A DNA stretch of 64,000 nucleotides from an uncultured Methylophaga sp. (GTDB lineage: Bacteria; Pseudomonadota; Gammaproteobacteria; Nitrosococcales; Methylophagaceae). Positions 17,823 to 33,714 of the stretch are shown one piece after another. How positions within the stretch are numbered: the stretch's first letter is position 1; the number at the start of each line of letters is the position of its first letter. The notes under the pieces are model-generated. The model was given only the letters and a program-made list of their open reading frames with translations, was not told the origin of the DNA and made no database searches. The stretch spans positions 248,001 through 312,000 of the forward strand of contig NZ_CAMYKO010000006.1 of NCBI RefSeq assembly GCF_947259025.1, given 5' to 3'. The position numbers and the translations under genes were made by a program.

Positions 17823-19559
17823 TTAATCGATAGGTTTGATTGATTGCTCAATTATACGGGCATTGAAAGTGTTTTTGATGATTTCCACTGCCGGGTCATT
17901 ATTAATCGCATCAACCGCCTGTTGTTGCTTCTCTGCTGCCAGAGCGGCACGTTCCACTGCCAGCGTGGGGCCGGCATCCTGCACATCGGCGGGCTCGGCA
18001 AACACCAGCTTGAGTTCCTGTCCCAGTTTGGTGGACAGCGCGTCGCAGAGTCGTTTCTTGGATTTGTCAGTAGCCAGATGTGCTAGTTCCGGCGACAGTG
18101 ATAAATGCACGGCCTGCTGTTCGACCCGGACTAAGGCACTGTTTTCTGCCAGTTGCCGGGTCAAAGCGGACAGTTTGAGTTCGGCAATAATGCGGGTCCA
18201 GTTGTCCGGCGTCAGATCCAGATCTGGCCTCTGGCCGGCAGATCCAGGCTCAGCATCATTGGCAGCAGTAACCGGTTGAGTAACGGGCGCAGGCGCTGCT
18301 TGGTCGATTGGTGGCGTTTCTGGCCGGGGTGCGGCGGGCGCTGTTTTAACCGCAGCTTCGGTAATGGGCGGCGTTTCAGGCGGGGTCGCTTGACTCACCG
18401 GCGGTGGAGTCACGGCCGGTTTACTGGGCGGTGGCGACTTTTTTAGCGGCGCTGTCTCCTCTGACTCCGTCGGTGGCGGGGCCGGCCGGAAACTGAGCAT
18501 ACGCAGCAGCGTCATTTCAAAGCCGCTTTGTGGATCGGCAGCCCAGGATAAGTCACGTTTACCATGCAGGGCTATCTGATATAGCAGCTGCACGGTTTCA
18601 GCATCAAACAGTTGGGCCAGTTCTTTAAGTTCGGCGCTGCTGGATTCGGTGCTTTCCATATCTGGCACCAGTTGCAGCGTAGCGATGTGTTGCAAGGCGG
18701 CCAGCATATAGTCAAACACCACCCCGAAATCGCGGCCCAAAGCGGCCAACTCGGCGGATTGCGCCAGCAGGGCTTTGGCGTCCTGTTGCTGTAATGCGTG
18801 AAGCAACAGGGTCAGTTGCTGCTGACTGATACTACCCAGCATCTGAAACACGGTATCGCTGCTGACTTCACCGCCACCGAAAGCAATCGCCTGATCCAAT
18901 AGGCTCAATGCATCACGCATGCTACCGTCAGCAGCCCGCGCGATTTGCGTGAGGGCCTCAGTTTCGAACTGGATATTTTCCTGTTGCAGGATAAAGGCGA
19001 GATGGTCGCTGATTTGCGGCAGTTCCAGTCGGCGCAGGTTGAATTGCAGGCAACGCGACAAAATGGTGACCGGCAGTTTCTGTGGATCAGTCGTGGCAAA
19101 CAGGAATTTAACGTGGGGTGGGGGTTCTTCCAGTGTTTTCAGCAGTGCATTAAAGCTGTGGCCGGACAACATGTGCACTTCGTCAATCAGGTAGACTTTG
19201 TAGCGGCCACGGCTGGGGGCATATTGCACGTTGTCGAGTAATTCGCGGGTGTCATCGACTTTGGTACGCGAAGCAGCATCGACCTCAATCAAGTCAACAA
19301 AGCGGCCGTTATCGATTTCAATGCAGCTCTGGCATTCGCCACAGGGTGTGGAGCTGACGCCTTGTTCACAGTTAAGGGATTTGGCAAGAATACGGGCAAG
19401 GGTGGTTTTGCCGACGCCGCGGGTGCCTGAAAACAGGAAAGCATGATGCAGCCGGTCTTGATCGAGACCATTTATCAGCGCCCGTAATACGTGCTGCTGG
19501 CCGACGACTTCGGCAAACGATTTAGGTCGCCACTTGCGGGCCAGAACCAGATAACTCAT
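17823..19559 (-). CDS. dnaX: DNA polymerase III subunits gamma and tau
   Basis: Clamp-loader ATPase and replisome organiser. Walker [13 protein letters not shown] (residues about 45-56), zinc-binding cysteines (C64, then C-x2-C in CGECQSC), Walker B/DEVHML, SRC and sensor regions, followed by a Pro/Ala-rich linker (about residues 365-440) and a tau-specific C-terminal domain. At 578 aa it is of the shorter tau type. I did not find an obvious A6-type frameshift slippery site in the linker. It starts only 28 bp after the 3' end of the SRP RNA, so it is likely transcribed through that gene. Confidence 0.96.
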
Positions 19560-19587
19560 CAGCTAAACGTCACCCTTGATCAGTTAG

Positions 19588-19702
19588 GGTGGTGACCCAC
19601 ACCAGCCGAATCTCGGCGCCCGAGTCCGAAGGCTCCGCTGCTCCCTTCCGGGCCTGACGGGTTGACCAACATATCGTCGCGAGGAGACCGATGCAGGCCA
19701 CC
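19588..19702 (-). ncRNA. ffs: 4.5S RNA, signal recognition particle RNA
   Basis: On the minus strand the conserved SRP core GTCAGGCCCGGAAGGGAGCAGC is present (asymmetric loop and tetraloop GGAA), flanked by complementary ends GGTGG (5', 19698-19702) and CCACC (3', 19588-19592) that close a single long hairpin of about 115 nt. The RNA binds Ffh to form SRP. Ends are set from pairing and could be off by a few bases. Location just before dnaX is shared with other Gammaproteobacteria. Confidence 0.95.
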
Positions 19703-19714
19703 ATAGAACCCCAT

Positions 19715-19720
19715 ATTGTA
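19715..19720 (-). promoter_or_regulatory. predicted -10 element for the SRP RNA (and dnaX)
   Basis: TACAAT on the minus strand, one base from consensus, would start transcription near 19708, just ahead of the mature 5' end of the SRP RNA. No good -35 is visible at 16-18 bp. As the dnaX gap is tiny, this could be the promoter for dnaX-ybaB-recR as well. Confidence 0.35.
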
Positions 19721-19914
19721 GGTGTTAATGACGAGATTTTCCATCACCGAAATACACCGCCGGACCAGTCCCCGTTAAACAAGCACTTAGCGATAGACCT
19801 GTCTGAAACTCAGCAATAATTGCGTTTGATTTGCGCAATCAGATTCTAAAAAAGCTGTTGAGAGGATAGAATCAACCGATAAGCTGATAGGCAAACCGCA
19901 AATTGATTGCCCGG

Positions 19915-19938
19915 CAGTCAGGCAAAGTCGCCTGACTG
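19915..19938 (+). promoter_or_regulatory. leader hairpin before the GGDEF-EAL gene
   Basis: Perfect inverted repeat CAGTCAGGC/GCCTGACTG with a 6-base spacer, ending 26 bp before the TTG start and about 13 bp before its Shine-Dalgarno. It could be an operator or an mRNA hairpin affecting ribosome access. The repeat is seen; function is inference. Confidence 0.4.
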
Positions 19939-19964
19939 GCCCAGAACCCGAAGCGGAGAATTTT

Positions 19965-22900
19965 TTGTCCCAAACAACGCGCCACTCAATGAAAGGCCTA
20001 ATCAGTAATCTGCTGGTTGCGCTGCTGTATCTGGCGACCGGATTGCTGAGCCTGAAAATCTCGGCGATCAATGAGTTTACCGCTGTTGTCTTTTTTCCGG
20101 CCGGCATTGCGCTGGCGTTCTGTCTGTCCTATCGACTGTGGCGGGTCTTGCCCGGTGTGCTTATTGGTTCTTATTTGCTGAACCTGTTGGTAGCCAGTGA
20201 GCAGGGCTCTTTCACGCTTGTGTCTCATGCTTTACCCATGGTGATAGCGCTGGCCTCAGCGCTGCAGGCAGCAGTGGGTGCCCTGATGCTGAAGCGCTTT
20301 GTCAGTGATCCGCTGACCTTGAGTGATGATCGTGAAATTCTGCTGTTTCTGGTATTTGTGCCGCTGGTTTGTCTTATCAGTGCCAGTATCAGCGTCAGCA
20401 CCATGCATGTTTTCAGCGAGGCCGGGCTGAGTTACTGGTCCACATGGGCCGGGTGGTGGGCCGGCGACTCGCTGGGCATTCTGGTTACCTTGCCGCTGCT
20501 TATGAGCTTCACCGGCCAGCCACGCCAACTTTGGCGCAGCAGACGCTGGTTAATGGGGATACAGATGCTGGTGTCATTACTGGTGATCGTGACCCTGACG
20601 CACAACATCAAACAGTTTGAAGATAATCGGCTGGATGATCGTTTCCGTATCCGTACTCAGGAAGCCGGCACTCTATTCCAGGTGGCTTTACGTGCCGAGG
20701 AACTGATCCAGGAGAGTGTTGCCCAGTTATTTGTGTCTTCCGAAGAAGTCACGCGGAAAGAGTTCAGTGAATTTGTGCGCTGGGCCACAGCCCATAATCA
20801 ACATATTCAGGTGGTTGAGTGGCTGCCGAGGATCACTGCTGAACAGCGTGCTGCCTATGAGGCAGAGCAGCAGGCTTATTTCGGGCCCGGTTTTTCAATT
20901 ACGGAATTCGTGGCCAGAGGGCAACTGGGACCAGCGGGTCAACGTGAAGTGTATTATCCGATTACTTTCCTTGAACCCGAATGGGATAACAAGCCGGCGC
21001 GCGGCTTTGACCCAACCTCTTCAGCGGTGTCCAGGCAGGTCATTGAAAAGGCCATCGAAACAGGCCGTCCCTACGCCAGACCACCGCTTAAAATTCTGCG
21101 TGATAACAGCCGCATCGATGCCCTACTTATCTACCGGCCTGTTTATCAGCGAGCCAGCGGCAATTTGACGCTGGATCCGGCCCGCAGCCAGGTGGCTGGG
21201 CTGGTTAATATCGTGATTCGTATCGACGATTTTATTAATGAGATTCTGCGTGACAGCGGCACGCGCGATTTCACGTTGAAATGGCAGGATGAACTCACTG
21301 GTGAGTATTACTATCAGCAGGCGTCCAGCATAGACACCGATATCAGCCATGAAGTCGCATTTGAGATGGCGGGCCGCAGCATGCGGCTGCAGTTCACGCC
21401 CACCGAGCACTTCCTCAACAGCAATACTACGCAGCTGGCCGTTTTCGCGCTGATAGGCGGCTTTCTGCTCGCCGGGTTGTTCTCGCTGCTGTTTCTGAGT
21501 ATCACCGGACGCACCCATCGGGTGGCCGAGGAGGTCAATCAGCGTACCGAAGAACTGACGGCAGCCACGAATCGGGCGCAGGCATCGGAAAAGCGCATTC
21601 GCCAGGTGCTCAGACAAATGCAACAGGCCGAGCAGAAGCTGCTGTTGTCGGATGTGGCATTCAACTCTACCAGTGAAGCGATGATGATTACTGATGACAG
21701 CAAGCGCATCATCGCTGTGAACTCGGCCTTTACCCGCATTACCGGCTATAGCGAGCAGTCGGTGCTGGGCGAATATCCCGATTTTCTGGTGAGCGGACTC
21801 AGCGAGAGTGAATACCGGCAGTTATCGGAAGACTTCTCCAGCGCCATCGAAAGCGAAGGGATCTGGCGGGGTGAAATACAGAGCCATCATCGCGATAACA
21901 AGACCTTCCCGGCCTACGTGTCGATGTCTGCGGTGTATGACGATAACGGCAGGATCAGCAATATGGTCGCCGTGTTCTCTGATATCACCGACGTCAAGGA
22001 AGCCCAGGCTAAAATCGAGCGTCACGCCAATTACGATATTCTGACCGACTTACCCAACCGTCGGCTGTTTACCGACCGACTGCAGCAGGCCATACTGCGA
22101 TCAGGGCGTGAACAGGAAAAGCTGTGCCTGATGTTTTTGGATCTGGACCGTTTTAAGGACGTCAACGATACGCTGGGCCACGAATTCGGTGATGAGTTGC
22201 TACGGCAAATGGCATTGCGGATCCGCGACTGTGTGCGCGAAGTGGATACGGTGGCCCGGCTGGGTGGGGATGAGTTCACCATTATTCTGAGTGACTTCGA
22301 TAGCAAGAGTCATGCAGTTAATATTGCCCAGAAACTGATCAGCGATATTGAGCAGCCGATTACCATTGAGGAACAGACGCTGCGGATCACCACCAGTATC
22401 GGCATTACTTTTTATCCCGATGATGCGCTGGATACCGGCATGTTGATTCAGAATGCCGACCGTGCCATGTACGCCGCCAAGGATATGGGCGGCAGTGCCT
22501 TCAAGTTTTATACTTCGGAACTGGAATCAAGCTGGCGTTCCAGAACGTTCATTATCAATGAACTGGAAGCCGCGATTGAAAACGGTGAAATTGAGGTCTA
22601 TTACCAGCCGCTGATTGCTACCGGCGATGAGCTGGATATCAGTGCCGAGGCGCTGGTGCGCTGGCTGCATCCGGAACGGGGCTTGATTGCGCCGGCGGAA
22701 TTTCTGCCCCAGGCCGAACGCATGGGCATGATCGAGAAAATTGATGACTTTGTTTTCAGACAGGTCTGTCAGCAGATCAAAAACTGGCAACAAGAAGGTC
22801 TGGGGGATGTACATGTGTCGGTCAATCGTTCAGCCCATAATTTCGGCAACCAGCGCGGTCGACTTGACTGGCTGGCACATCTTCGCGAGCAGGGGATTGA

Positions 22901-23342
22901 TGGCCAATTACTGACACTGGAAATCACCGAGAGTGTGCTGATGCAACGTCACGCTGAAAGCCGGGTGTTACTGAAAAAACTGCGTGAAGCCAATGTGCAG
23001 ATCGCAGTTGATGATTTTGGTACCGGTTATTCCTCACTGTCCTATCTCAAGGAAATGGATGTCGATTATCTGAAGATTGACCGTTCCTTTGTCCGTGATC
23101 TGGAATCGGATGAAAATGACCGGGCGATTATTGAAGCGATCAGTGATATGGCCCGCCACCTGGGCATTGCCGTCATTGCCGAAGGGGTGGAAACTGACAG
23201 CCAGCGCTTGATCCTGGAACAAATCGGCTGTCAGTGGCTGCAGGGCTACCTGTTTGCCAAACCCTTGCCGCTGGCCAAGTTTGAACAGTACGTTCGTGAT
23301 CAGATTGCCAGCGCTGACAGGAAAACAGCCGATCGTCCCTGA
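19965..23342 (+). CDS. MASE1-CHASE-PAS-GGDEF-EAL c-di-GMP sensor protein
   Basis: Membrane receptor of 1125 aa that should make and/or break c-di-GMP. Order: MASE1 membrane sensor (residues about 8-210; WAGWWAGDSLGILV), a periplasmic CHASE domain (about 215-480), one helix, a coiled coil, PAS (about 560-680; FNSTSEAMMITD, ITGYSEQSVLG), GGDEF (intact GGDEF at 767-771, with RxxD inhibitory site five residues before) and EAL (intact EAL at 895-897, plus DDFGTGYSSL, EGVET). Both catalytic motifs are complete. The start is a TTG with GGAG six bases upstream; the next ATG (19989) lacks a ribosome site. It is a single gene, ligand unknown. Confidence 0.92.
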   Translation: MSQTTRHSMKGLISNLLVALLYLATGLLSLKISAINEFTAVVFFPAGIALAFCLSYRLWRVLPGVLIGSYLLNLLVASEQGSFTLVSHALPMVIALASALQAAVGALMLKRFVSDPLTLSDDREILLFLVFVPLVCLISASISVSTMHVFSEAGLSYWSTWAGWWAGDSLGILVTLPLLMSFTGQPRQLWRSRRWLMGIQMLVSLLVIVTLTHNIKQFEDNRLDDRFRIRTQEAGTLFQVALRAEELIQESVAQLFVSSEEVTRKEFSEFVRWATAHNQHIQVVEWLPRITAEQRAAYEAEQQAYFGPGFSITEFVARGQLGPAGQREVYYPITFLEPEWDNKPARGFDPTSSAVSRQVIEKAIETGRPYARPPLKILRDNSRIDALLIYRPVYQRASGNLTLDPARSQVAGLVNIVIRIDDFINEILRDSGTRDFTLKWQDELTGEYYYQQASSIDTDISHEVAFEMAGRSMRLQFTPTEHFLNSNTTQLAVFALIGGFLLAGLFSLLFLSITGRTHRVAEEVNQRTEELTAATNRAQASEKRIRQVLRQMQQAEQKLLLSDVAFNSTSEAMMITDDSKRIIAVNSAFTRITGYSEQSVLGEYPDFLVSGLSESEYRQLSEDFSSAIESEGIWRGEIQSHHRDNKTFPAYVSMSAVYDDNGRISNMVAVFSDITDVKEAQAKIERHANYDILTDLPNRRLFTDRLQQAILRSGREQEKLCLMFLDLDRFKDVNDTLGHEFGDELLRQMALRIRDCVREVDTVARLGGDEFTIILSDFDSKSHAVNIAQKLISDIEQPITIEEQTLRITTSIGITFYPDDALDTGMLIQNADRAMYAAKDMGGSAFKFYTSELESSWRSRTFIINELEAAIENGEIEVYYQPLIATGDELDISAEALVRWLHPERGLIAPAEFLPQAERMGMIEKIDDFVFRQVCQQIKNWQQEGLGDVHVSVNRSAHNFGNQRGRLDWLAHLREQGIDGQLLTLEITESVLMQRHAESRVLLKKLREANVQIAVDDFGTGYSSLSYLKEMDVDYLKIDRSFVRDLESDENDRAIIEAISDMARHLGIAVIAEGVETDSQRLILEQIGCQWLQGYLFAKPLPLAKFEQYVRDQIASADRKTADRP

Positions 23343-23377
23343 TCAGCCGGGGCGAAAGGGGAACGCCCAATCAATAA

Positions 23378-25483
23378 TTAGTCCCAGTTCAGATTAATAC
23401 CGGTGTAGAGAAATCGCCCGGCCTGCGGAAAGCCATAGCTGGTCTGATAGTCCTCATCAAACAGGTTATCAACGCCGATATAAACCTGGCCCGATTGCGC
23501 TGGCAGTTGGTAGCTGAGCTTGGCACCCACCAGTTCATAGCTGTCCAGTTCTCGGTGCTCACTGCTGCCACCACGTGCAAAATAGGCCTGCTCACCGATA
23601 TGAATCAGCGTGCCCGACACCGTCCAGTCAGCATTGACCCTATAATCGGCATCCAGGCTCAGCTTTTGCTTAGGCCGGTATTGCAGGGTGCTGGAAGCCG
23701 CATCACTGGAGTCATCCCGGGCCCGCAATAAACCCAATGCTGCACGGACAGTCAGTTTGTCAGTGGGGCGGATTTGGGCGCTGATATCAATGCCTTTGAG
23801 TTCGAGCTCCTGGCGGTTTTCGAACTCATCAGTGTCATTGTTGCGTTCGATAAAGTCATAGACTTTTGAATGCCAGAAAGCAATGTTCAGATCAGCCTGT
23901 TGCCAATGTTTGTTATAGCCTGCTTCCAGGTGGTTGGCACGCTGAAAGCCCAGGCTGTCATTACCGCCACGGCTCTCATATAACTGGCGAATACTGGGCG
24001 CATCCACCTTGCGTGAGACAGACCCATACACCGAGGACGATGCACTCACGGCTTTGCTCAACAGCAGCCGCGCACTTTGCTCGCTTTCATCCTGGCCGCC
24101 ATCCTTATCCAGCTTGTGATGCGCCATGCCTGCCACCAGGGTCATCTGGTAGGGCAGGGGTTGGGTGACTTCGACGGCATAGGAGGTGACATCGATATCT
24201 TTATTTAAATCAATGCTGGTAAAGTCGGACGGGGTATCGCATCCTGAGGCACCGCCGCCACCGCCGCCACCGCCGCCACCGCCGCCACCGCCGCCACCGC
24301 CGCCACCGGAAGCATTACATTCGACACCACTGGAGTCGAAGTCTTCATTGCGGCTGTCGACGCTGAAAGCGATTTCGGTGGATGTCGATGTAATCAGCCC
24401 GTCAAGTTGGGCATGCAGTCCACGGATACGGGTTTCATTATCCAGCCGGAAACTATTGTTTTGGCTGATGCTGTTATAGCTGGCATCATCAAAACTTAAC
24501 TCGGTATCTTCCAACTGGTTATGAAACAACCAGAGTTTGGCGCCCCAGTTGTCATTGAAAGCATAATCACCGCCAAGCTGCAGTGTGGTGCCTCGCTGAT
24601 CTTCGGTACGCTCATAGCGGGCCCGACGTGAGAAAGGATCGCTGTTATCAAAAGCGATAGGGGGTTTGCCGTAATCACCCTGCAGGTGGCTGATAAACAG
24701 ACCCAGATTGAGTTTTTGAGTCACCTGCCGATTATAGGAAAGCAGATAATTCTTACGCCGGTAATCGCTGTTATTACGCTCATTGGTATCCTGGAAATTA
24801 TCAGTGTCGACACCGATGGGCGAATCAAAATTATCCGACATTGGAAAACCATCGCGGGAGCGGATCCCGGCAGCCATAAACAAATCATTGTTTTCATCAC
24901 CATAGCCAGCGTAGGCGTTGCCGTGCCAGAAATGATCGCTGCCCAGTTCGGCTTTGACACCACTGCGCAAACCGTCGAATTGGCCGCGGGTCTGAATATC
25001 CATCACACCGCCCATGCCGCCATCACCGTAAAGCACTGACGAACCGCCGGCTTTGAGGTTGATTCGCCCTATGCCCAGCGTTGGAATCAGGGTAGGGTCG
25101 AACTGGCCGTCAAAAGTCGAGTTAAACGGAATACCATTGACCAGCAGTTTGATCTGACGGGTTCTGAGGCCCCGGATATCAATTCGCGGCGTACCGTCTG
25201 CGCCATTGCGGACATTGAGTGAGGGTAGCAATCTGATGGCATCATCAAGGCTGCGGGCGCTGATTCGCTCCATATCCTGACGTTCAATGCGGAACTGACT
25301 CGCCGTTTCGACGTCTTCGCTGACGACGATTTGTCCCAGCGGGTAAACATCTTCGCTGTTTGCTTTGGCAGCAATACCGCTACTGACGGTCAAAGCCATC
25401 AAACTCAACGTGGTATTGATAATAGGTTTCGCTATATTCTTTGAACTATAACGGCTGACATGATGAGTGGGTGTTGTTCTCAT
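23378..25483 (-). CDS. TonB-dependent outer-membrane receptor with poly-glycine insert
   Basis: Gated beta-barrel importer of 701 aa. Signal peptide (to about residue 42), TonB-box-like segment QIVVSED, plug domain (SLDDAIRLLPSLNVR, IDIRGL, AGGSSVLYGDGGMGGVMDI) and a 22-strand barrel ending in YTGINLNWD with an aromatic near the end. Residues 393-411 are 19 consecutive glycines between Cys389 and Cys415, probably in an external loop. It is the last gene of a unit with a membrane protein, a TiaS-like protein and a ModE-like regulator, so its substrate may be an oxyanion or metal chelate; B12- or siderophore-type cargo cannot be excluded. Confidence 0.88.
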   Translation of the reverse strand: MRTTPTHHVSRYSSKNIAKPIINTTLSLMALTVSSGIAAKANSEDVYPLGQIVVSEDVETASQFRIERQDMERISARSLDDAIRLLPSLNVRNGADGTPRIDIRGLRTRQIKLLVNGIPFNSTFDGQFDPTLIPTLGIGRINLKAGGSSVLYGDGGMGGVMDIQTRGQFDGLRSGVKAELGSDHFWHGNAYAGYGDENNDLFMAAGIRSRDGFPMSDNFDSPIGVDTDNFQDTNERNNSDYRRKNYLLSYNRQVTQKLNLGLFISHLQGDYGKPPIAFDNSDPFSRRARYERTEDQRGTTLQLGGDYAFNDNWGAKLWLFHNQLEDTELSFDDASYNSISQNNSFRLDNETRIRGLHAQLDGLITSTSTEIAFSVDSRNEDFDSSGVECNASGGGGGGGGGGGGGGGGGGGASGCDTPSDFTSIDLNKDIDVTSYAVEVTQPLPYQMTLVAGMAHHKLDKDGGQDESEQSARLLLSKAVSASSSVYGSVSRKVDAPSIRQLYESRGGNDSLGFQRANHLEAGYNKHWQQADLNIAFWHSKVYDFIERNNDTDEFENRQELELKGIDISAQIRPTDKLTVRAALGLLRARDDSSDAASSTLQYRPKQKLSLDADYRVNADWTVSGTLIHIGEQAYFARGGSSEHRELDSYELVGAKLSYQLPAQSGQVYIGVDNLFDEDYQTSYGFPQAGRFLYTGINLNWD
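24251..24307 (-). repeat. 9-bp tandem repeat encoding 19 glycines
   Basis: Six perfect copies of GGTGGCGGC (minus strand) plus a final GGT. Nine bases equals three codons, so gain or loss of units by slippage would change loop length without a frameshift. It is in frame inside the TonB receptor. A GC-rich perfect repeat can also be an assembly weak point, so copy number should be treated with care. Confidence 0.9.
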
Positions 25484-25499
25484 GATGGGTTGCCTTGGT

Positions 25500-26063
25500 T
25501 TAGGGTTGGTCGGACTTGTTTTTTTGCAGCGAGCGCCAGGCCAATAATCCGGCCAGGCCGCCGATTAGACCGAAACTGAAGTGGGTAATGAGCGGGTAAA
25601 GCAGGCCATGGCTGAGCGAATCACTGACTATGCCCATGCCGGACTGGAAGCCGAACTTGATCATGGGTTTAAGCATGTGTGCCAAGGCAGTGACAACCAT
25701 CATCAGCCATAACGTCAGGCTGTGGTGCTTGAGCAGGCGATGGGCACTGTCAATAAACAGCCCCTGGGCAAGTAAAATCAGGCTGCCCACGCCGGCAGCA
25801 TCATTGAACAGTAAAGAGGCGGATACGCCGCCCATGGCAGCCAGGGTTGCAGCGTAATGCTGTGGTGCGCTCAGACGTACAAACATCAGAATCGCCATCA
25901 GTTCCAGGCCATGGCGACCGGGTAGGTTGAGCGGCCAGCGCAGGGCCTCGTGAAACCACACGGCGAGGACCCCGGCCGAGAATATCAGCAGCAGTTGCCA
26001 GCCGTTTGATCTATGCGCTTCAGAATTTCCTGAGATAGTCTTTGGCAGCGACTTGCCAGCCAT
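25500..26063 (-). CDS. small polytopic membrane protein, ECF S-component-like
   Basis: 187 aa with about five or six membrane helices, a short charged N-terminus and a Lys-rich C-terminal end. The pattern LPGRHGLELMAILMFVRL, followed by alternating hydrophobic helices and a late FGLIGGLAGLLAWRSL, looks like the substrate-binding S-components of ECF importers, but I cannot assign a family. No ECF A or T component is nearby. The ATG at 26063 is chosen because GGAG lies seven bases before it; this overlaps the upstream TiaS-like gene by 44 bp. It lies 16 bp before the TonB receptor gene on the same strand, so the two are co-transcribed. Confidence 0.65.
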   Translation of the reverse strand: MAGKSLPKTISGNSEAHRSNGWQLLLIFSAGVLAVWFHEALRWPLNLPGRHGLELMAILMFVRLSAPQHYAATLAAMGGVSASLLFNDAAGVGSLILLAQGLFIDSAHRLLKHHSLTLWLMMVVTALAHMLKPMIKFGFQSGMGIVSDSLSHGLLYPLITHFSFGLIGGLAGLLAWRSLQKNKSDQP

Positions 26064-26778
26064 CAGCGTTCTCCGTATCAGGTTCAACCAGCAGGGTAGC
26101 CTTGCCACCCAGCCAGATACCACGGGGCCAGGGCCCCATCGCAATCAGGCATGCCGGATCGGTTAATACCAGTCCTTGCAGACTCTGCACCAGCTCAATC
26201 CCGGTCTGTGCAAGTAGAGCCTCGAGCGTAACTGTCTGCCCAGCTAATTCGCGCATTCCAGCCAACCACAGCATCCTGCCATCACTGCCCGAAGCGTTGA
26301 GGCCCGCCGCTGCCAGGGCGCCGATAACCCCATCTTTAGTGCCGGTAAGGCCAAACAGCTTGATCGCATGTTGTTCAGCCAAATCCCAAGCGGCTTGCTG
26401 GCTGACTAGTTGCTGTTTACAGACAAAACCGAACTGTTGAATTGTCAGCGGGATTTGTTCCTGCCACATCAAGCAAAGCCCGGCATCTGAGCCTTCGGCG
26501 CTGTTCTGTTGTAGATACGCCTTACAAAAGCTTTCAATGTCAGCCATAGCCGAAGTGGCCGTTTCTACCCTGATACAGGCCGCGCTGTTATGCGAGGTAA
26601 ACGGCACCAGCGGGCTTTTGAGCAGTTGGTGGCGGGTAATAACCCGGCACGTGCCCCAGTTATTCTCGCCCACAGCCGCACCGATGTGGCGGGCATGGAA
26701 GCCAGTGCCACGACTTTCCAGGTTGTCGGTGTCGTCAATCCCAATCAGCAGTATCCGGCTGGATTCGCTATTTGCCAT
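26020..26778 (-). CDS. TiaS-like protein (TCKD/ferredoxin-like domains)
   Basis: 252 aa. The N-terminal LIGIDDTDNLESRGTG carries the Asp cluster of the TCKD domain of archaeal TiaS, which uses ATP to attach agmatine to C34 of tRNA-Ile2. The next segment (VITRHQLLKSPLVPFTSHNSAACIRVE) and KDGVIGALAAAGL also follow the TiaS pattern. The archaeal zinc ribbon and OB tRNA-binding parts are missing, and bacteria use TilS for that tRNA, so a tRNA role is unlikely. It is first in the unit with the membrane protein and TonB receptor, behind a ModE-like operator. Function unknown; ATP-dependent modification of a small molecule is one possibility. Confidence 0.7.
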   Translation of the reverse strand: MANSESSRILLIGIDDTDNLESRGTGFHARHIGAAVGENNWGTCRVITRHQLLKSPLVPFTSHNSAACIRVETATSAMADIESFCKAYLQQNSAEGSDAGLCLMWQEQIPLTIQQFGFVCKQQLVSQQAAWDLAEQHAIKLFGLTGTKDGVIGALAAAGLNASGSDGRMLWLAGMRELAGQTVTLEALLAQTGIELVQSLQGLVLTDPACLIAMGPWPRGIWLGGKATLLVEPDTENADGWQVAAKDYLRKF

Positions 26779-26795
26779 GTGTCTATTCAGTTACT

Positions 26796-26819
26796 CGCTG
26801 TATGCAAGCATATACAACG
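26796..26819. promoter_or_regulatory. ModE-like operator
   Basis: Imperfect 24-bp palindrome with outer arms CGCTGTAT and ATACAACG. This has the same overall length and the same CG-N-T(A/G)TAT arms as the E. coli modA operator as I remember it. It covers the predicted -10 of the TiaS-like operon and lies 18 bp before its ATG. The ModE-like gene ends 22 bp away. Sequence symmetry is seen; binding by that protein is inferred. Confidence 0.5.
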
Positions 26820-26835
26820 CAAGACAATAAACCAA
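26807..26835 (-). promoter_or_regulatory. predicted sigma-70 promoter for the TiaS-like operon
   Basis: On the minus strand TTGGTT (26830-26835) and TATGCT (26807-26812) are separated by 17 bp. The -10 lies inside the ModE-like palindrome, an arrangement expected for repression. Confidence 0.4.
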
Positions 26836-26840
26836 CTCTA

Positions 26841-27182
26841 CTAACGGAGTAGCTCGTTAAATGCTTGGGCTTCCTGTTCGACCGCAGCCATCGCCTGACG
26901 CTGGATATGCCGATAACGTTGCAGTACGTCACGACCAAATTCAGTAATATGAGCGCCGCCGCCGTGGTTGCCGCCAGTGGCGGTAGCTACCAGAGGCTGT
27001 TTGAAGCTGTTGTTCATGGTACTGACCAGATCCCAGGCGCGTTTGTAGGACATGCCCATGGTTTTTGCTGCAGCAGATATCGAGCCCTTTTCGATAATGG
27101 CATCAAGTAAGTCCGCTTTGCCGGGTCCCAACGCGTAGAGGCCGTGGTAAGGAAAGCGAAGTTTGATATCAACTGCAGGCAT
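26841..27182 (-). CDS. ModE-like winged-helix regulator, DNA-binding domain only
   Basis: 113 aa matching the N-terminal HTH domain of ModE: GSISAAAKTMGMSYKRAWDLV (recognition helix region) and the glycine-rich wing TGGNHGGGAHITEFG are close to E. coli ModE. The two C-terminal Mop/TOBE molybdate-binding domains are absent, so how it senses a ligand is unknown; many single-domain ModE homologues exist. It is upstream of, and on the same strand as, the TiaS-like/membrane/TonB unit, with the operator-like palindrome in between. Confidence 0.85.
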   Translation of the reverse strand: MPAVDIKLRFPYHGLYALGPGKADLLDAIIEKGSISAAAKTMGMSYKRAWDLVSTMNNSFKQPLVATATGGNHGGGAHITEFGRDVLQRYRHIQRQAMAAVEQEAQAFNELLR

Positions 27183-27260
27183 AGGTCATGGTTAGCTGTT
27201 AATCTTAGGCTGATTATAGCCCATCAACAGCGCTAAGGTCGTGCAGGGAAGGAGGGAAAA

Positions 27261-27351
27261 TGGCGGAGAGCGAGGGATTCGAACCCTCGATAGGCTATAA
27301 ACCTATACACACTTTCCAGGCGTGCGCCTTCAACCACTCGGCCAGCTCTCC
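27261..27351 (-). tRNA. tRNA-Ser(GGA)
   Basis: 91 nt including encoded CCA. Acceptor stem GGAGAGC pairs with GCTCTCC-G, the D arm starts TGGCCGAGTGG, the anticodon loop is CTGGAAA (anticodon GGA, reading UCC/UCU), a long variable arm typical of serine tRNA follows, and the T arm has GGTTCGAATCC. No intrinsic terminator was seen after it. Confidence 0.96.
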
Positions 27352-27370
27352 AGAGGGGGCGAAGATTACC

Positions 27371-28357
27371 TCAGATCGCCTTGTCTGGCAATGCTGTGTC
27401 AGGTTTCTCCGCGTTTTGTGGTGCAGTTTGGGTCTTATCTTTTTTAGCGGGGGCTTTGCTGCGGCGCGGTTTTGCTTTGCTGCCAGTGGTTTCTTTATCG
27501 CTTTTTTGCGGCTTTTCAGGCGCAGCTTGGGTCTGTTGCACTGCCGGCTTTTCTGCCGTTTCCGCTTCGTTCTGCGCAGTGTTTTCAGCTTTTTTATTAC
27601 TGCGTTTTTTCCTGTCGGCTTGGCGAGCATAAAAAGCCAGCCCCTTCAGCACGATATCCGGGTAGTGGTGAATATCGTCAGGTAACAAGGGCAATAACTG
27701 CATGGCGTCACCGCCGGTAATGATGAAGCGGATCTGATTGTCGAAGCCTTGTCTGAGATCATTAATTATGCGTTCCAGTGTGGCACTGATACTGTAGAGC
27801 GTCCCTGCATGAATCGCACTGAATGTATTGGTAGCCAGGGTTTTGAATTCTTTTTCACCCGGGGCTTCGGTCAAGGCGTCGGTGTTGGCGGCCAGCGAAC
27901 TGCGCATCAGGCTCAGGCCCGGCAGGATCATACCACCCTGATGCTGGCCGGTTTTGCTGACAATATCAATCGTCATCGCTGTGCCGCAGTCGATCACACA
28001 TTGTGCCTGGCGGGCATGCTGGCGGGCGGCAATCAGCGACAACCAGCGATCGATACCCAGTTTTTCCGGCTCATCATAGGCATTGCTGACGCCGAAGCGT
28101 TTGGCTTCGCTGCTAACGAATGTCGGCGTTAACTGCCATTGTTTTTGCGTCCATTCAGTGAGTTGCTGGGCCAGCTTGTCACCGGCAACATTGGCCACAA
28201 ACACCGCTTCAACGTCTGTCAATGATTTCCAGACTTTATTCAGTGAGGCCTTGATGCCGGTTTTGCTACGTTGGAAGTCTTGGCTGTCGGCCAGACCGTC
28301 TTTATCCATTACGGTCCATTTGACCCGGCTGTTACCGATATCGACCAGCAGTTTCAT
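27371..28357 (-). CDS. coaX: type III pantothenate kinase with long basic C-terminal tail
   Basis: First step of coenzyme A synthesis. The ASKHA-fold motifs are visible: DIGNSRVKW at the start, YDEPEKLGIDRWLSL, DCGTAMTID and GGMILPGL, and ITGGDA later. The catalytic part ends near residue 245, the usual full length. About 80 additional residues follow, rich in Lys, Ala, Pro, Gln and Glu (KPRRSKAPAKKDK), which look disordered. It overlaps birA by 4 bp (ATGA); birA-coaX is a common gene pair. Confidence 0.92.
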   Translation of the reverse strand: MKLLVDIGNSRVKWTVMDKDGLADSQDFQRSKTGIKASLNKVWKSLTDVEAVFVANVAGDKLAQQLTEWTQKQWQLTPTFVSSEAKRFGVSNAYDEPEKLGIDRWLSLIAARQHARQAQCVIDCGTAMTIDIVSKTGQHQGGMILPGLSLMRSSLAANTDALTEAPGEKEFKTLATNTFSAIHAGTLYSISATLERIINDLRQGFDNQIRFIITGGDAMQLLPLLPDDIHHYPDIVLKGLAFYARQADRKKRSNKKAENTAQNEAETAEKPAVQQTQAAPEKPQKSDKETTGSKAKPRRSKAPAKKDKTQTAPQNAEKPDTALPDKAI

Positions 28358-29157
28358 GAGGCAAACCTGATGCTGATATGACTGTTGGAAAGCAGGTGAA
28401 CCTGGCTGTCACGCAGGTAACGCAGTTCGCCTTGTTCATTAATGCCACAGGCCAGGGCGGGGGTACGCTGTTCGCCATCTACCAGGGTTATCGCCTGTTC
28501 GTGGAGGGCGTCATATTGTGGCCACAGAGGAAGAAAGTCACTCAGGCCGCGGTGTTCAAACACTTGTATTGTCTCGATCATGTTCTGAATTATTTTTCCG
28601 GCCAGCCAGTTTCGACAGGGAACCGGGTCACAGAGCTGTTCGAGGCTGGTGGAGGGTTGTTGGATTAAGTTCTGGGTGGACGCCGGAAGCTTGAAATTAA
28701 GGCCGATGCCCACAACCGTAAATTGCTTACTGTTGAACCTTGATTCTACTAGAATTCCCGCCAGCTTTTGTCGCCGGTATAACACGTCATTGGGCCATTT
28801 CAGTTGTAACTGATTGATTCCAGCTTCTTTAAGGCTGTTTATCAGGCTGATACCCATGGCGATACTGAGGCCGTTACGCGGTGTTTCTGCGCAACTGGGC
28901 CAGAACAGCGACAGGTATAAATTGCCGGCGGCAGGAGACTGCCATTGATCTCCCCGGCGGCCGCGTCCCGATGTCTGAGATTCTGCGAGACATACCGCAG
29001 GGGTTTGCTGACCATCACTGAAACGCCGCCACAGCTGGTCGCTGGTGGAGTCTATTTGCGGATAAACCAGGATGTCATCAAGTTGCTGTTGCGCCGAAGC
29101 CGACATGGCCTTGCTGATTGCAACCGTCGTGAGCGGTGAAAAAGGGGATTGGCTCAA
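28354..29157 (-). CDS. birA: biotin--[acetyl-CoA-carboxylase] ligase
   Basis: Attaches biotin to the AccB subunit of acetyl-CoA carboxylase. Motifs: IDSTSDQLW, SGRGRRGDQWQSP (biotinyl-AMP loop), LQLKWPNDVLY--KLAGILVE and VGIGLNF. It lacks the N-terminal HTH of E. coli BirA, so it is not expected to repress biotin genes. The start is unclear: a TTG at 29157 extends a segment that resembles the E. coli linker, while an ATG at 29106 would give a 250-aa enzyme; neither has a strong ribosome site. Confidence 0.9.
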   Translation of the reverse strand: MSQSPFSPLTTVAISKAMSASAQQQLDDILVYPQIDSTSDQLWRRFSDGQQTPAVCLAESQTSGRGRRGDQWQSPAAGNLYLSLFWPSCAETPRNGLSIAMGISLINSLKEAGINQLQLKWPNDVLYRRQKLAGILVESRFNSKQFTVVGIGLNFKLPASTQNLIQQPSTSLEQLCDPVPCRNWLAGKIIQNMIETIQVFEHRGLSDFLPLWPQYDALHEQAITLVDGEQRTPALACGINEQGELRYLRDSQVHLLSNSHISIRFAS

Positions 29158-29241
29158 GTCAAAAGTCTTGCTGTTGAGATTGAGCCGCTAGTTTAGCAGG
29201 GCCGGGATGGCACTGTGAAGCGCCGGGAAAGGGCTGTGATG

Positions 29242-29469
29242 TCAGACTTTGATGTCTAACAGGCTGCCAATCATTTCATTGCTGGTTTCAATCACTTTGG
29301 CCGCCGCCTGTACCTGGCGTTCGTTGGCATTGAGCGATACCAGTTCCTGTGTCAGTTGCTGACTGGAGAGCTGATCGGCACGGGCAATCTGACTAGCGTT
29401 CTGGCTTGCACCATAAACGCCGTTCTGTACACCGGCAATCCCTGATTGAAATGCTGAAATACTATTCAT
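29242..29469 (-). CDS. 75-residue flagellar rod/hook-like miniprotein
   Basis: The N-terminus (ISAFQSGIAGVQNG) and C-terminus (QVQAAAKVIETSNEMIGSLLDIKV) resemble the two ends of flagellar axial proteins such as FlgG/FlgE/FlgC, whose terminal helices form the D0 coiled coil, but the whole middle is missing. No flagellar gene is nearby. The ATG at 29469 is preceded by GGGAG at good spacing. It may be a chaperone, regulator or remnant; function unknown. It is located between birA and the wrbA cluster. Confidence 0.7.
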   Translation of the reverse strand: MNSISAFQSGIAGVQNGVYGASQNASQIARADQLSSQQLTQELVSLNANERQVQAAAKVIETSNEMIGSLLDIKV

Positions 29470-29504
29470 TGTCTGTCTCCCAGAATCAATGTATTTATAG
29501 CATG

Positions 29505-30469
<965 letters not shown>

Positions 30470-30820
30470 TCAGACAATATCCAGAACCGATTCCGGTGGC
30501 CGGCCAAGCCGGGCTTTGTCGTTATTGATGACAATCGGCCGCTCAATCAGCTTGGGGTGATTGACCATGGCATCGATCAGTGCGGCTTCGCTTAAGTCGG
30601 GATCTTTCAAGTTCAGTTTTTTGTAATCATCTTCGCCTTTGCGTAGCAAATCACGGGCACTGATTCCCAGCTTTGCCAGAATCGTCTTTAACTCTGCGGC
30701 GCTGGGCGGGGTATCAAGGTATTTGATGATTTCCGGTTCAACCCCTTTTTCTTCCAGCAAGGCCAGCGTTTGTCGGGACTTGCTGCAACGCGGGTTATGC
30801 AGAATCTGAATAGCGGTCAT
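30470..30820 (-). CDS. arsC: arsenate reductase, glutaredoxin-linked ArsC family
   Basis: 116-aa ArsC/YfgD-like protein with the catalytic Cys12 in HNPRCSKSRQ and the later RPIVI-NDKARLGRPPE, which carries the conserved Arg residues. The ATG at 30820 overlaps the lapB stop by 4 bp (ATGA) and is chosen over an upstream in-frame codon. Housekeeping members of this family often act on arsenate poorly; no arsB or arsR is nearby. Confidence 0.88.
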   Translation of the reverse strand: MTAIQILHNPRCSKSRQTLALLEEKGVEPEIIKYLDTPPSAAELKTILAKLGISARDLLRKGEDDYKKLNLKDPDLSEAALIDAMVNHPKLIERPIVINNDKARLGRPPESVLDIV

Positions 30821-31998
30821 CGAGATGGCTCCAATAGTTTTTCCAAAGCAGATAAATGAATTTCGACCGGGCGGATAGTGGCCCAGTTTGAGCAACCGGG
30901 ACACTGCCAGTGCATCGTGCGGCCGGAGAAACCACAGTTTTTACAGGTATAGCGGTCACCTTTATGAATCAAAGCGGTGGTGACCTCTTTAATTAAAGGA
31001 ATCAGCACCTGGTGATTGTCTTCACCCAGCTGTATTAATTGATGCAGGCCTTCCACTGAAGGGTGTTGATAGAGCTGTCGGTAAAGAAACTGCTGGGCTG
31101 CCTGGTTGCCCTGCTGTTTCTGGAGCAGCCGGGTCAGCAGTAGCCGCGCAGAGGTGAGCTGGGGATGGCGCTCCAGCAACTGTTGTAACCAGCCACGAAA
31201 CTGTGCTGACTGACCACTTTGTTCGTAACAGCGTTGTAGCAGTGGCAGCGCCTCGGACAAATAATAGTGATTCTGTTGTTCGATTTGCTGTAGAACTTTG
31301 ATGGCTTTACGGCTGTGACCCGCATTGATCAGCATTTTGCCCTCCAGCAGGCTGGCGCGAACACAGCTGGGATCGTATTGATAAGCCTGACGCAACAGAG
31401 TCATGGCCTGTTGACGATCCTGCTTGCTCAGCGGCTCGGCCAGTTCACAGTAAAACTGGGCAATCAGCGCATCGGTATTGAGCTTGGTATCGGCAGGGAT
31501 CAGTTTGGCCATATCAATGGCCTGCTGCCATTTCTTCTCCTGCTGGTAGATCCGCAGTAGCTGTCTGGGCGCTTCCGATGGTGGTGGCGACTGTTGCAGC
31601 AGTTCCAGAAACAGCTGCTCAGCCCGATCCAGCACCCCGGCGCTCATATAATCCAGTCCCAGCTCTACCAATGCCTGGACTCGCTGTTGGCCGCTGAGCG
31701 TGGGACGGGCAATGAGGTTTTGATGAATACGGATGGCGCGGTCGGTCTCGCCGCGGCGACGGAACAGGTTAGCCAGCGCCAGATGGGTTTCTACCGTTTC
31801 ACTGTTGACTTCCAGCAAGCCGATAAACACATCAATGGCCTTATCCGGTTGTTCATTCAGCAGGTAGTTGAGGCCTTTGAAGTACTCCGGACTGAAAGCC
31901 GAGTCCTGGGGACGATAGCGGCGTTTGTAATGACGCCTGGCCATCATCCAGCCGGACAGGGCAGCAACAGGCAGCAGAAAAAACAGCCATTCCAGCAT
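30817..31998 (-). CDS. lapB: lipopolysaccharide assembly protein B
   Basis: Inner-membrane TPR protein (YciM) that in E. coli recruits FtsH to degrade LpxC and so tunes LPS synthesis. One N-terminal membrane helix, about eight or nine TPR-like repeats (residues 40-340), and a C-terminal rubredoxin-type metal site: CKNCG and CPGC. 393 aa is standard. A GTG lies directly before the ATG at 31998; the ATG is used. It follows lapA closely, as in E. coli. Confidence 0.93.
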   Translation of the reverse strand: MLEWLFFLLPVAALSGWMMARRHYKRRYRPQDSAFSPEYFKGLNYLLNEQPDKAIDVFIGLLEVNSETVETHLALANLFRRRGETDRAIRIHQNLIARPTLSGQQRVQALVELGLDYMSAGVLDRAEQLFLELLQQSPPPSEAPRQLLRIYQQEKKWQQAIDMAKLIPADTKLNTDALIAQFYCELAEPLSKQDRQQAMTLLRQAYQYDPSCVRASLLEGKMLINAGHSRKAIKVLQQIEQQNHYYLSEALPLLQRCYEQSGQSAQFRGWLQQLLERHPQLTSARLLLTRLLQKQQGNQAAQQFLYRQLYQHPSVEGLHQLIQLGEDNHQVLIPLIKEVTTALIHKGDRYTCKNCGFSGRTMHWQCPGCSNWATIRPVEIHLSALEKLLEPSR

Positions 31999-32003
31999 CA
32001 CGA

Positions 32004-32297
32004 TCAGTGCTTGTCTTTAATCGGCAGGATCCGCAGGCTGTTAATTTCCTGTTCGGAGACCGACAGTTTATGTTGCAGGCGACGGTTTTCGTAGCGCAGT
32101 TTCAGCGTGCTCATCATCAGCACAATGACCCCCAGAGCGACACCGGCAAGCATGGCCAGCACCAGCACGGCAGCCAGTGGCAGCGTGATATCACCGAAGT
32201 AGAAATTCACCGTAACGGCGGTCATATTAAATGCGGCAAAGGCAGCGCTGATAATAAAAATCAGGGCAAACAAGAGCCAGAAAAACATTTTTCGCAT
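32004..32297 (-). CDS. lapA: lipopolysaccharide assembly protein A
   Basis: 97 aa with two membrane helices and a C-terminal coiled coil, DUF1049/YciS type (FNMTAVTVNFYFGDITLPLAAVLVLAMLAGVALG). It is the partner of LapB. The ATG at 32297 (MRKMFF) is chosen with AAGGGA upstream instead of a longer reading. It is divergent from fdxA. Confidence 0.88.
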   Translation of the reverse strand: MRKMFFWLLFALIFIISAAFAAFNMTAVTVNFYFGDITLPLAAVLVLAMLAGVALGVIVLMMSTLKLRYENRRLQHKLSVSEQEINSLRILPIKDKH

Positions 32298-32414
32298 ACT
32301 GCGCAGTCCCTTAACATTGCTCAGGTTGGAAGCTTTGCTCCCAGATTGATGATCATACCGCAAAAACGGGCCTTGCCCAGAATAGGGCTAAATCATGTAA
32401 AATAGCGGTTTAAC

Positions 32415-32420
32415 TATAAT
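32415..32420 (+). promoter_or_regulatory. predicted -10 element for fdxA
   Basis: Perfect TATAAT 46 bp before the fdxA ATG. No convincing -35 is found at 16-18 bp. The leader downstream has a short GCGAG/CTCGC hairpin. Confidence 0.35.
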
Positions 32421-32466
32421 TAAAGCGAGTCAAGCTCGCGTCACTCGTGTTTTTGGAGAATTCAGC

Positions 32467-32790
32467 ATGACCTTTGTCGTCACAGAAAACTGTATCAAGT
32501 GTAAATATACTGATTGCGTTGATGTCTGCCCAGTAGATTGTTTTCACGAAGGTCCCAATTTTCTGGTTATTGACCCTGATGAGTGCATCGACTGCACCCT
32601 GTGCGAGCCGGAGTGTCCGGCAGAAGCGATTTTCTCGGAAGATGATTTGCCGGACGATCAAATGGACTTCCTGCAGATTAATGAAGAATTATCACAAAGC
32701 TGGCCGGTGATTTCCGAGAAAAAAGATCCTTTGCCAGACGCTGAGGAATGGGACGGCAAAGCGGATAAAACGCCGCTGCTTGAACGCTAG
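32467..32790 (+). CDS. fdxA: 7Fe ferredoxin (FdxA)
   Basis: Small electron carrier of 107 aa with one [3Fe-4S] and one [4Fe-4S] cluster. Cluster ligands are in C-x2-C-x4-C-x3-CP ([17 protein letters not shown]) and [12 protein letters not shown]. The long Asp/Glu-rich C-terminal extension is characteristic of FdxA from Azotobacter and Pseudomonas. It is a single gene ending at a strong terminator shared with rpoH. Confidence 0.95.
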
Positions 32791-32805
32791 CCGACACTCC
32801 CGGAT

Positions 32806-32838
32806 AAAAAAAAGCCCGCTCTAAGCGGGCTTTTTTTT
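32806..32838. terminator. bidirectional intrinsic terminator, fdxA/rpoH
   Basis: Stem AGCCCGCT/AGCGGGCT with loop CTA (32813-32831), followed by eight Ts and preceded by eight As. It therefore works in both directions for the two convergent genes. Confidence 0.95.
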
Positions 32839-32853
32839 GGCCTGGATAATGAC

Positions 32854-33714
32854 TCAGGCCATCAGTTTCTTGAGTTTTTTCATCGCATTATTTTCTATCT
32901 GTCGAATCCTTTCGGCAGAAACCTGATATTGATCAGCGAGGGTGTGGAGCGTGGCTTTATCCTCATCATTGAGCCAGCGCTGGCTGATGATGTCACGGCT
33001 GCGATCATCCAGCGTCGACAGTGCATTAGCCAGCTTCTGCTGCTGATAGTCACTGAAGTTATCCTGTTCCAGTTGCTGTGACGGATCACTGTTATCAGGC
33101 GCGGCAAGGTAAGCGACCGGGGAGAAGTGGGTTTCTTCATCGTCACCGTCAGCCGGTAAATCGAAAGAGGTATCAGGCTGGGCCAGGCGACGTTCCATTT
33201 CCATCACATTGGCCGGTGTGACGCCCAGATCTTCGGCTACAGCTTCCACTTCTTCCTGGTTAAGCCAACCCAGACGTTGTTTAGCGCTGCGTAGATTAAA
33301 GAATAATTTACGCTGCGCCTTGGTTGTCGCGATCTTGACGATGCGCCAGTTACGAATCACATATTCGTGAATTTCAGCGCGAATCCAGTGCACGGCGAAA
33401 GAGACCAGACGCACGCCTTTTTCAGGGTTGAATCGTTTGACAGCTTTCATCAGGCCGATATTGCCTTCCTGAATCAGATCGGCAACCGGCAGACCATAAC
33501 CGCTGTAACCTTTGGCGATGCGGGCAACAAAACGCAGATGCGAAAGAACCAGCCGCTGGGCAGCTTCCAGATCACCATCGTTTTGCAGGCGTGTCGCCAG
33601 CTCGTATTCCTCTTCTGCGGTAAGAACAGGAATGGTGTGAACCAGGCTGGTGTAGGCATCCAGATTACCAATCGGTGCCAAGGCCATTTCGTATTGGGCC
33701 ACATTATTCGTCAT
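32854..33714 (-). CDS. rpoH: RNA polymerase sigma-32 (heat shock) factor
   Basis: Directs transcription of heat-shock genes. 286 aa with region 2 ([34 protein letters not shown]), the RpoH box QRKLFFNLR specific to sigma-32, and region 4.2 ([21 protein letters not shown]). ATG with AGGAG nine bases before it. It lies downstream of ftsX, the same order as ftsYEX-rpoH in many Gammaproteobacteria, with its own 92-bp leader containing a perfect palindrome. Confidence 0.97.

Follow-up and report, generated by a model that had tools for sequence, protein, structure and literature searches.

A conserved overlapping gene pair encoding a TiaS-kinase-domain-like protein and a predicted S-component-fold membrane protein in a candidate molybdenum- or tungsten-regulated uptake operon of Methylophaga

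The closest described counterpart of the operon analysed here, four genes in a 64,000-nucleotide stretch of an uncultured Methylophaga sp. (the window; contig NZ_CAMYKO010000006.1, positions 248,001 to 312,000), is the BtuB-BtuM-BtuR system of Thiobacillus denitrificans. In excerpts from PMC6072759, BtuM is a solitary S-component-like protein in a genome with no energy-coupling factor (ECF) module, which shows that such a protein can function without the ECF motor; its cobalamin ligand is a cysteine, BtuB is located at the outer membrane, and BtuR, the ATP-dependent enzyme adjoining BtuM, has been proposed to trap the cargo. Compared with the system as given there, the window operon likewise has a TonB receptor, a solitary S-component-like protein without an ECF module and an adjacent, presumably ATP-dependent enzyme, but that enzyme is unrelated (a TiaS kinase domain), the membrane protein has no conserved cysteine, the neighbourhood is linked to molybdenum and tungsten (Mo/W), and the genes overlap. 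ModABC and TupABC with ModE resemble the operon in Mo/W control and sometimes in sharing its neighbourhood, whereas here another inner-membrane protein and another ATP user are present and an outer-membrane receptor is included. An outer-membrane step in molybdate acquisition has been reported for Pseudomonas aeruginosa, by way of the H2 type VI secretion system (H2-T6SS), secreted ModA and IcmP, and excerpts from the review that covers it (PMC8602904) name no S-component or TiaS-like partner. In the open-licence PMC literature searched, we found no description of the present gene set, nor any TonB receptor that serves tungsten or molybdenum.

We found that the central pair of genes, encoding the TiaS-like protein and the membrane protein, is real and widely conserved, and that its Mo/W-linked setting is recurrent, not universal. 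The operon may be a Mo/W-regulated nutrient uptake route in which an S-component works without an ECF motor beside an ATP-using TiaS-like partner, a tentative reading to which we give somewhat less than an even chance. Genes, predicted folds, overlap, linkage, co-occurrence and regulator boxes were computed, and from them we infer transport, regulation, ATP chemistry (phosphorylation or activation of the cargo by the TiaS-like protein) and the cargo itself, a Mo/W species. The features of the locus are as follows.

26841-27182, minus strand: modE-like regulator gene, 113 aa
26020-26778, minus strand: TiaS-kinase-domain-like gene, 252 aa
25500-26063, minus strand: gene for the membrane protein of predicted S-component fold, 187 aa, ATG at 26063
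23378-25483, minus strand: TonB-dependent receptor gene, 701 aa
26020-26063, minus strand: 44-nt overlap between the end of the TiaS-like gene and the start of the membrane protein gene
25484-25499: 16-bp gap between the membrane protein gene and the receptor gene
26796-26819: 24-bp ModE-type palindrome 5' of the TiaS-like gene, 13 of 16 consensus positions
25430-25453: second ModE-type palindrome, within the receptor gene, codons 11-18 (RYSSKNIA)
24250-24308, minus strand: 9-bp tandem repeat in the receptor gene, 6.6 copies
27264-27351, minus strand: tRNA gene just upstream of the operon

The four genes lie on one strand with the tight spacing that the original prediction had claimed. The 44-nt overlap follows from placing the start of the membrane protein gene at ATG 26063; the list of open reading frames had an earlier TTG at 26144.

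To describe the spread of the system, we used as loci the best 80 of 262 relatives of the TiaS-like protein from a scan of 84,980 species genomes. Their hosts were Gammaproteobacteria, Alphaproteobacteria, Bacteroidota, Chloroflexi and Cyanobacteria, plus single metagenome-assembled genomes (MAGs) labelled Clostridia, Acidobacteria and Actinomycetes. The TiaS-like/membrane pair was kept in 76 of the 80 loci; one of the remaining four (L036) ends 46 nt past the TiaS-like gene, and three (L035, L043 and L062) contain no detectable membrane gene. The relative frame of the two overlapping genes is identical in all 76 pairs; every pair has the in-frame ATG within the TiaS-like gene, and the longest overlap was most often 59 or 50 nt. 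Because this overlap is fixed, it suggests coupled translation of two partners. Chance neighbourhood was rejected as an explanation for the pair, since the frame is the same in 76 of 76. The genes also travel together: in the order of G111 (the genome of L051, labelled Bacteroidales; order and family assignments were taken from the titles of the records), 40 of 295 genomes carried the TiaS-like gene, 37 the membrane gene and 35 both, so that the membrane gene was present in 35 of 40 TiaS-like-positive genomes versus 2 of 255 negative ones, and these two yielded a 53-aa piece and a weak match with stops. Five genomes of this order (G186, G258, G335, G353 and G364) had a TiaS-like gene and no detected membrane gene; in G335 and G364, which perhaps form a divergent subgroup, an AOR gene was on the same contig as the TiaS-like gene.

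Closer to the window, all four genes recurred in unchanged order in seven relatives, in one of which (L012) the contig ends inside the receptor gene. The handles L012-L018 and L021-L027 denote one set of seven places, which was counted once; L021 and L025-L027 are labelled Methylophaga and L022-L024 Gammaproteobacteria. Full-length carriers in the Methylophaga family thus numbered eight, the window's genome included, and their distribution was patchy, with 5 among the 24 genomes of the genus and 3 among the family's other 33. A match was obtained in 10 of 95 genomes, and two of these, G060 and G061, contained only short or broken fragments, apparently remnants. Pieces of TiaS-like genes, in L019 together with receptor pieces, were seen beside RuBisCO-like sequence in two order-mates (L019 and L020) and are likely remnants.

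TiaS is the archaeal tRNA-Ile2 agmatidine synthetase, and its kinase domain acts on RNA and protein (excerpts from PMC11938285). The AlphaFold2 (AF2) model of the window's TiaS-like protein (mean predicted local distance difference test, pLDDT, 93.9; 46-row alignment) matched TiaS structure 4rvz with Z 21.8 and a root-mean-square deviation (rmsd) of 1.7 over 149 aligned residues, which identifies the TiaS catalytic domain. A PDB search with the family profile A3 retrieved 3u02 at 7e-10 and TiaS at 7.6e-8. Thr25 of the protein aligns with Thr18 of Archaeoglobus fulgidus TiaS, which we take to be the autophosphorylated residue, and is invariant in 46 of 46 family members. The likeness is limited to this catalytic (kinase) domain: TiaS is an archaeal protein of ~420 aa, whereas the protein here is bacterial, has 252 aa and is partnered by a membrane gene, and with the NCBIfam TiaS model it scored 21.7 bits against a cut-off of 600, the match stopping at profile position 152 of 422. 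Methanogenesis marker protein 11 is the other likeness. Its model matched all 46 family members (best 1e-16), but the window protein reached 49.8 bits against the curated score of 255.8 and covered only profile positions 135-284 of 292; an exact-phrase search of open-licence PMC found no described function for this marker. Among viral contigs, 44 stretches fitted a pattern and none was a relative.

The AF2 model of the membrane protein (pLDDT 90.7, predicted template modelling score 0.85; 46-row alignment, modelled without Met1) had as its best structural match the ECF S-component 5edl (Z 15.7, rmsd 3.2, 163 residues), followed among S-component entries by RibU and ThiT (Z 12.4), and it also matched the transition-metal transporter 4m58 (9.9) and BtuM (9.3). 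The predicted fold agrees with the S-component-like protein proposed earlier. Since the Foldseek E value for 5edl was modest (3.9e-3, with no match under 0.001) and the B subunits of particulate methane and ammonia monooxygenases (pMMO/AMO) matched at Z ~12, an S-component fold is likely, not proven. The likeness to pMMO/AMO B was taken as a common helical arrangement, as 5edl stands 3 Z units higher. Pfam searches gave 11 weak families among the 46 members (best E 0.0021) and, for the window protein, MreD alone, under its cut-off. No cysteine column was invariant or 90% conserved in the 46 members. ECF transporters (with S-components such as RibU, ThiT, FolT and BioY) share the predicted S-component fold but use EcfT; of the 58 carriers, many of them MAGs, 43 yielded no EcfT (PF02361), including the window's genome (99.88% complete), whereas the same search detected it in 10 of 14 known control genomes. 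A canonical ECF transporter was rejected because EcfT is lacking.

The receptor contains a TonB plug domain (PF07715, E 1.7e-19). For a C-terminal beta-barrel there was no Pfam match, and NCBIfam receptor models, at the level of sequence, extend to residues 694-699. A close orthologue (E<1e-100) was present in the eight genomes with the system and absent from four without it (best 2.8e-10). The perfect 9-bp repeat at 24250-24308 encodes a Cys-flanked poly-glycine stretch; similar runs of other lengths occur in L015, L017 and L018 and none in L014.

The regulator that heads the operon proved to be of the ModE type, as anticipated, with a helix-turn-helix (HTH) matched by ModE_repress at E 1.7e-25 over residues 19-102 (89 bits, 9.5 under the cut-off of 98.5). 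Full ModE has C-terminal molybdate-binding TOBE/Mop domains, which Pfam did not find in the 113-aa regulator. The predicted palindrome between the regulator and TiaS-like genes was found and scored against a 16-position ModE box consensus; when the 200 bp 5' of the TiaS-like gene were dinucleotide-shuffled 1000 times, its 13 of 16 matches were never reached. Conservation of this palindrome held within the family: in the window and L021-L027 it occupies the same place with 13-15 of 16 positions (shuffle p <=0.004 each). Outside the family it did not, p<0.01 being attained in 10 of 78 upstream regions, namely the eight of the Methylophaga family plus L029 and L067. Its supposed position over a -10 element was not borne out, as a sigma-70-type scan of 23200-27400 gave a single promoter-like site, which is in another place and on the opposite strand.

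A second box lies in the signal-peptide codons of the receptor gene, in the same register (RY...NI) in all eight family members with 11-15 of 16 positions. The observed consensus sum of 111 was not reached in 20000 synonymous recodings (mean 93.4), and the isoleucine codon in the box is ATA in 8 of 8 members versus 18 of the 244 remaining Ile codons in these genes; owing to the relatedness of the sequences, the eight do not count as independent events. A weaker internal box (11 of 16) occurs in the receptor gene of a Bacteroidota locus (L083). A pattern made from both boxes had no further exact site in the 2.7-Mb genome of the window and three with one mismatch, and the reversed-pattern control gave two matches. 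One-mismatch sites lay near a peptidase-M23/prfB-like stretch and a SulP-like transporter, genes named by inspection. In G012, from which the system is absent, a related short ModE (57% identical) is followed by a different TonB receptor, and two boxes scoring 12 and 13 of 16 lie between the two. L162:3496-7328, in a genome that lacks the TiaS-like system, combines a ModE-type gene with two boxes, a different TonB receptor and a phnS2-like binding protein.

We examined the neighbourhood of the 80 loci with cluster hidden Markov models. A TonB receptor was present in 61 loci, in 48 of these on the same strand and at most 5.5 kb downstream, and a ModE-type HTH in 30, in 21 of them on the same strand just upstream; the ModE profile was made from 24 short proteins and may also match longer ModE fusions. 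Other markers were TupA-like proteins (19 loci), the AOR family (12), MoeA (7), MoaC (7) and MoaA (6), and at least one of ModE-type HTH, TupA-like, AOR, MoeA, MoaC and MoaA occurred in 41 loci. Cluster labels were checked on representatives (AOR, MoeA, MoaA, MoaC, MoaE, TupB, ThiF, FdhD, TupA and Ppnp), and no Pfam family was matched by the MPTlipo-labelled cluster or the Bacteroidota lipoprotein. Several Bacteroidota loci run AOR-(Ppnp)-ModE-TiaS-like-membrane-lipoprotein-TonB-secreted protein-MoeA-MoaA, and two Chloroflexi loci (L053 and L089) run TiaS-like-membrane-TupA-TupB-ABC ATPase. With NF041772 (curated score 400), L053, L014 and L036 scored 218.6, 255.7 and 221.6 bits and L025 only 42.2; these neighbours are TupA-like, not certified TupA. 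A handover from TonB receptor to TupA was rejected as a general rule, TupA-like genes being present in 19 of 80 loci. A small gene directly precedes the TiaS-like gene in Chloroflexi L053 (1849-2337), L089, L052, L062 and L078; a molybdopterin-oxidoreductase fold was guessed for it, but that of L053 gave no Pfam match. In the window's genome, L159:3686-5367 holds a TupB/TupC-like pair without an adjacent TupA.

These results are consistent with the following route. The TonB receptor would take a scarce form of Mo or W, be it an oxyanion, a thio-oxyanion or a chelate, over the outer membrane; the S-component-fold protein would move it, or its ligand, over the inner membrane without an ECF motor; and in the cytoplasm the TiaS-like protein might spend ATP on phosphorylating, activating or trapping the arriving cargo, as BtuR does for BtuM in the proposal cited above. 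The short ModE-type regulator would act at two boxes, before the TiaS-like gene and inside the receptor gene. Of the import route originally predicted, the recurrent gene set, the predicted S-component fold, the ModE-type regulator and the Mo/W neighbours stood; a universal four-gene set did not, as the pair (76 of 80 loci) and the receptor (61 of 80) recur but the ModE-type HTH was matched in only 30 of 80. A bolder form, in which the TiaS-type kinase domain directly drives or rectifies S-component transport in a fixed two-protein complex, making a new ABC-independent class of ATP-coupled Mo/W transporter across phyla, appears doubtful to us.

AOR enzymes use tungsten, and their family was found in 41 of 50 carrier genomes given, 3 of 95 relatives of the window's genome and 5 of 14 control genomes, although the contrast of 41/50 with 3/95 sets different bacterial groups side by side. 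In the order of G111, AOR was present in 39 of 40 carriers, eight of them already in the 50-carrier survey, versus 76 of 255 non-carriers (Fisher 2.9e-17), although such co-occurrence counts ignore relatedness. Several further results weigh against Mo/W uptake. No Mo/W marker was present in the stretch fetched for 39 of the 80 loci. The Chloroflexi pair stands beside TupA-TupB-ATPase genes and so is not a simple replacement of an ABC importer there. The residues of the membrane protein coded by the overlap are no better conserved than those elsewhere (pairwise identity 0.31 vs 0.33), so it is the arrangement that is kept. No box of at least 12/16 was found near modABC in the window's genome (L158). 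Within the Methylophaga family, AOR was found in 0 of 57 genomes, ModB in 12 of 12 tested, and the molybdopterin-enzyme family PF00384 in 4-7 copies in the eight carriers, within the range of non-carriers, which leaves the need for an extra route unexplained in this family.

The cargo could instead be an organic cofactor or fragment, pterin-like, for W/Mo enzymes, imported and then re-activated by the kinase-like protein, with an indirect link to the metal. Many of the S-components matched carry vitamins, judging from the ligands named in their entry titles, the neighbours include AOR, MoaA and MoeA, and an ATP-using partner is known from vitamin salvage (excerpts from PMC6072759). However, some of the gene runs concerned include MoaA and MoeA and with them cofactor synthesis, and the TupA-like and ModE-type neighbours favour an oxyanion; we regard a cofactor cargo as unlikely. 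That the pair senses instead of transports, the S-component-fold protein being a receptor and the TiaS-like kinase domain its signalling partner that informs the short ModE of Mo/W status, would fit a regulator without a sensor domain and the occurrence of the S-component fold in sensor histidine kinases (excerpts from PMC11109136), but it is quite improbable with a ModE-type HTH in only 30 of the 80 loci and the pair in 76.

A cobalamin or corrinoid system resembling BtuB-BtuM-BtuR has in its favour that the best NCBIfam match of the receptor was the TonB-B12 model (8.3e-36) and that BtuM has the same fold (Z 9.3), yet that match scored 123.7 bits, far under the cut-off of 599.7, the membrane family has no conserved cysteine column, the partner is TiaS-like and not BtuR, and no cobalamin riboswitch was found at the gathering score in window positions 19000-33000 and 28 of the 80 loci, where the search returned only three S-adenosylmethionine (SAM) riboswitches on the opposite strand (L080, L081 and L089); we consider it very improbable. 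Modification of tRNA or another RNA by the TiaS-like protein, with incidental neighbours, is hardly credible, as the protein is too short for the C-terminal domains by which TiaS binds tRNA, scores 21.7 bits against 600 and overlaps a membrane gene in 76 of 76 pairs.

The proposed Mo/W-regulated uptake bears on two questions. To our knowledge, S-component action without an ECF motor is still an open question. For molybdate, T6SS-ModA-IcmP was the one outer-membrane route encountered in the literature searched (excerpts from PMC8602904). A conserved, overlapping and metal-linked pair of S-component-like and kinase-like genes in cultured bacteria makes both the motorless S-component and the outer-membrane passage of Mo/W testable, and the bacterial TiaS/Mmp11-like proteins gain a first functional context.

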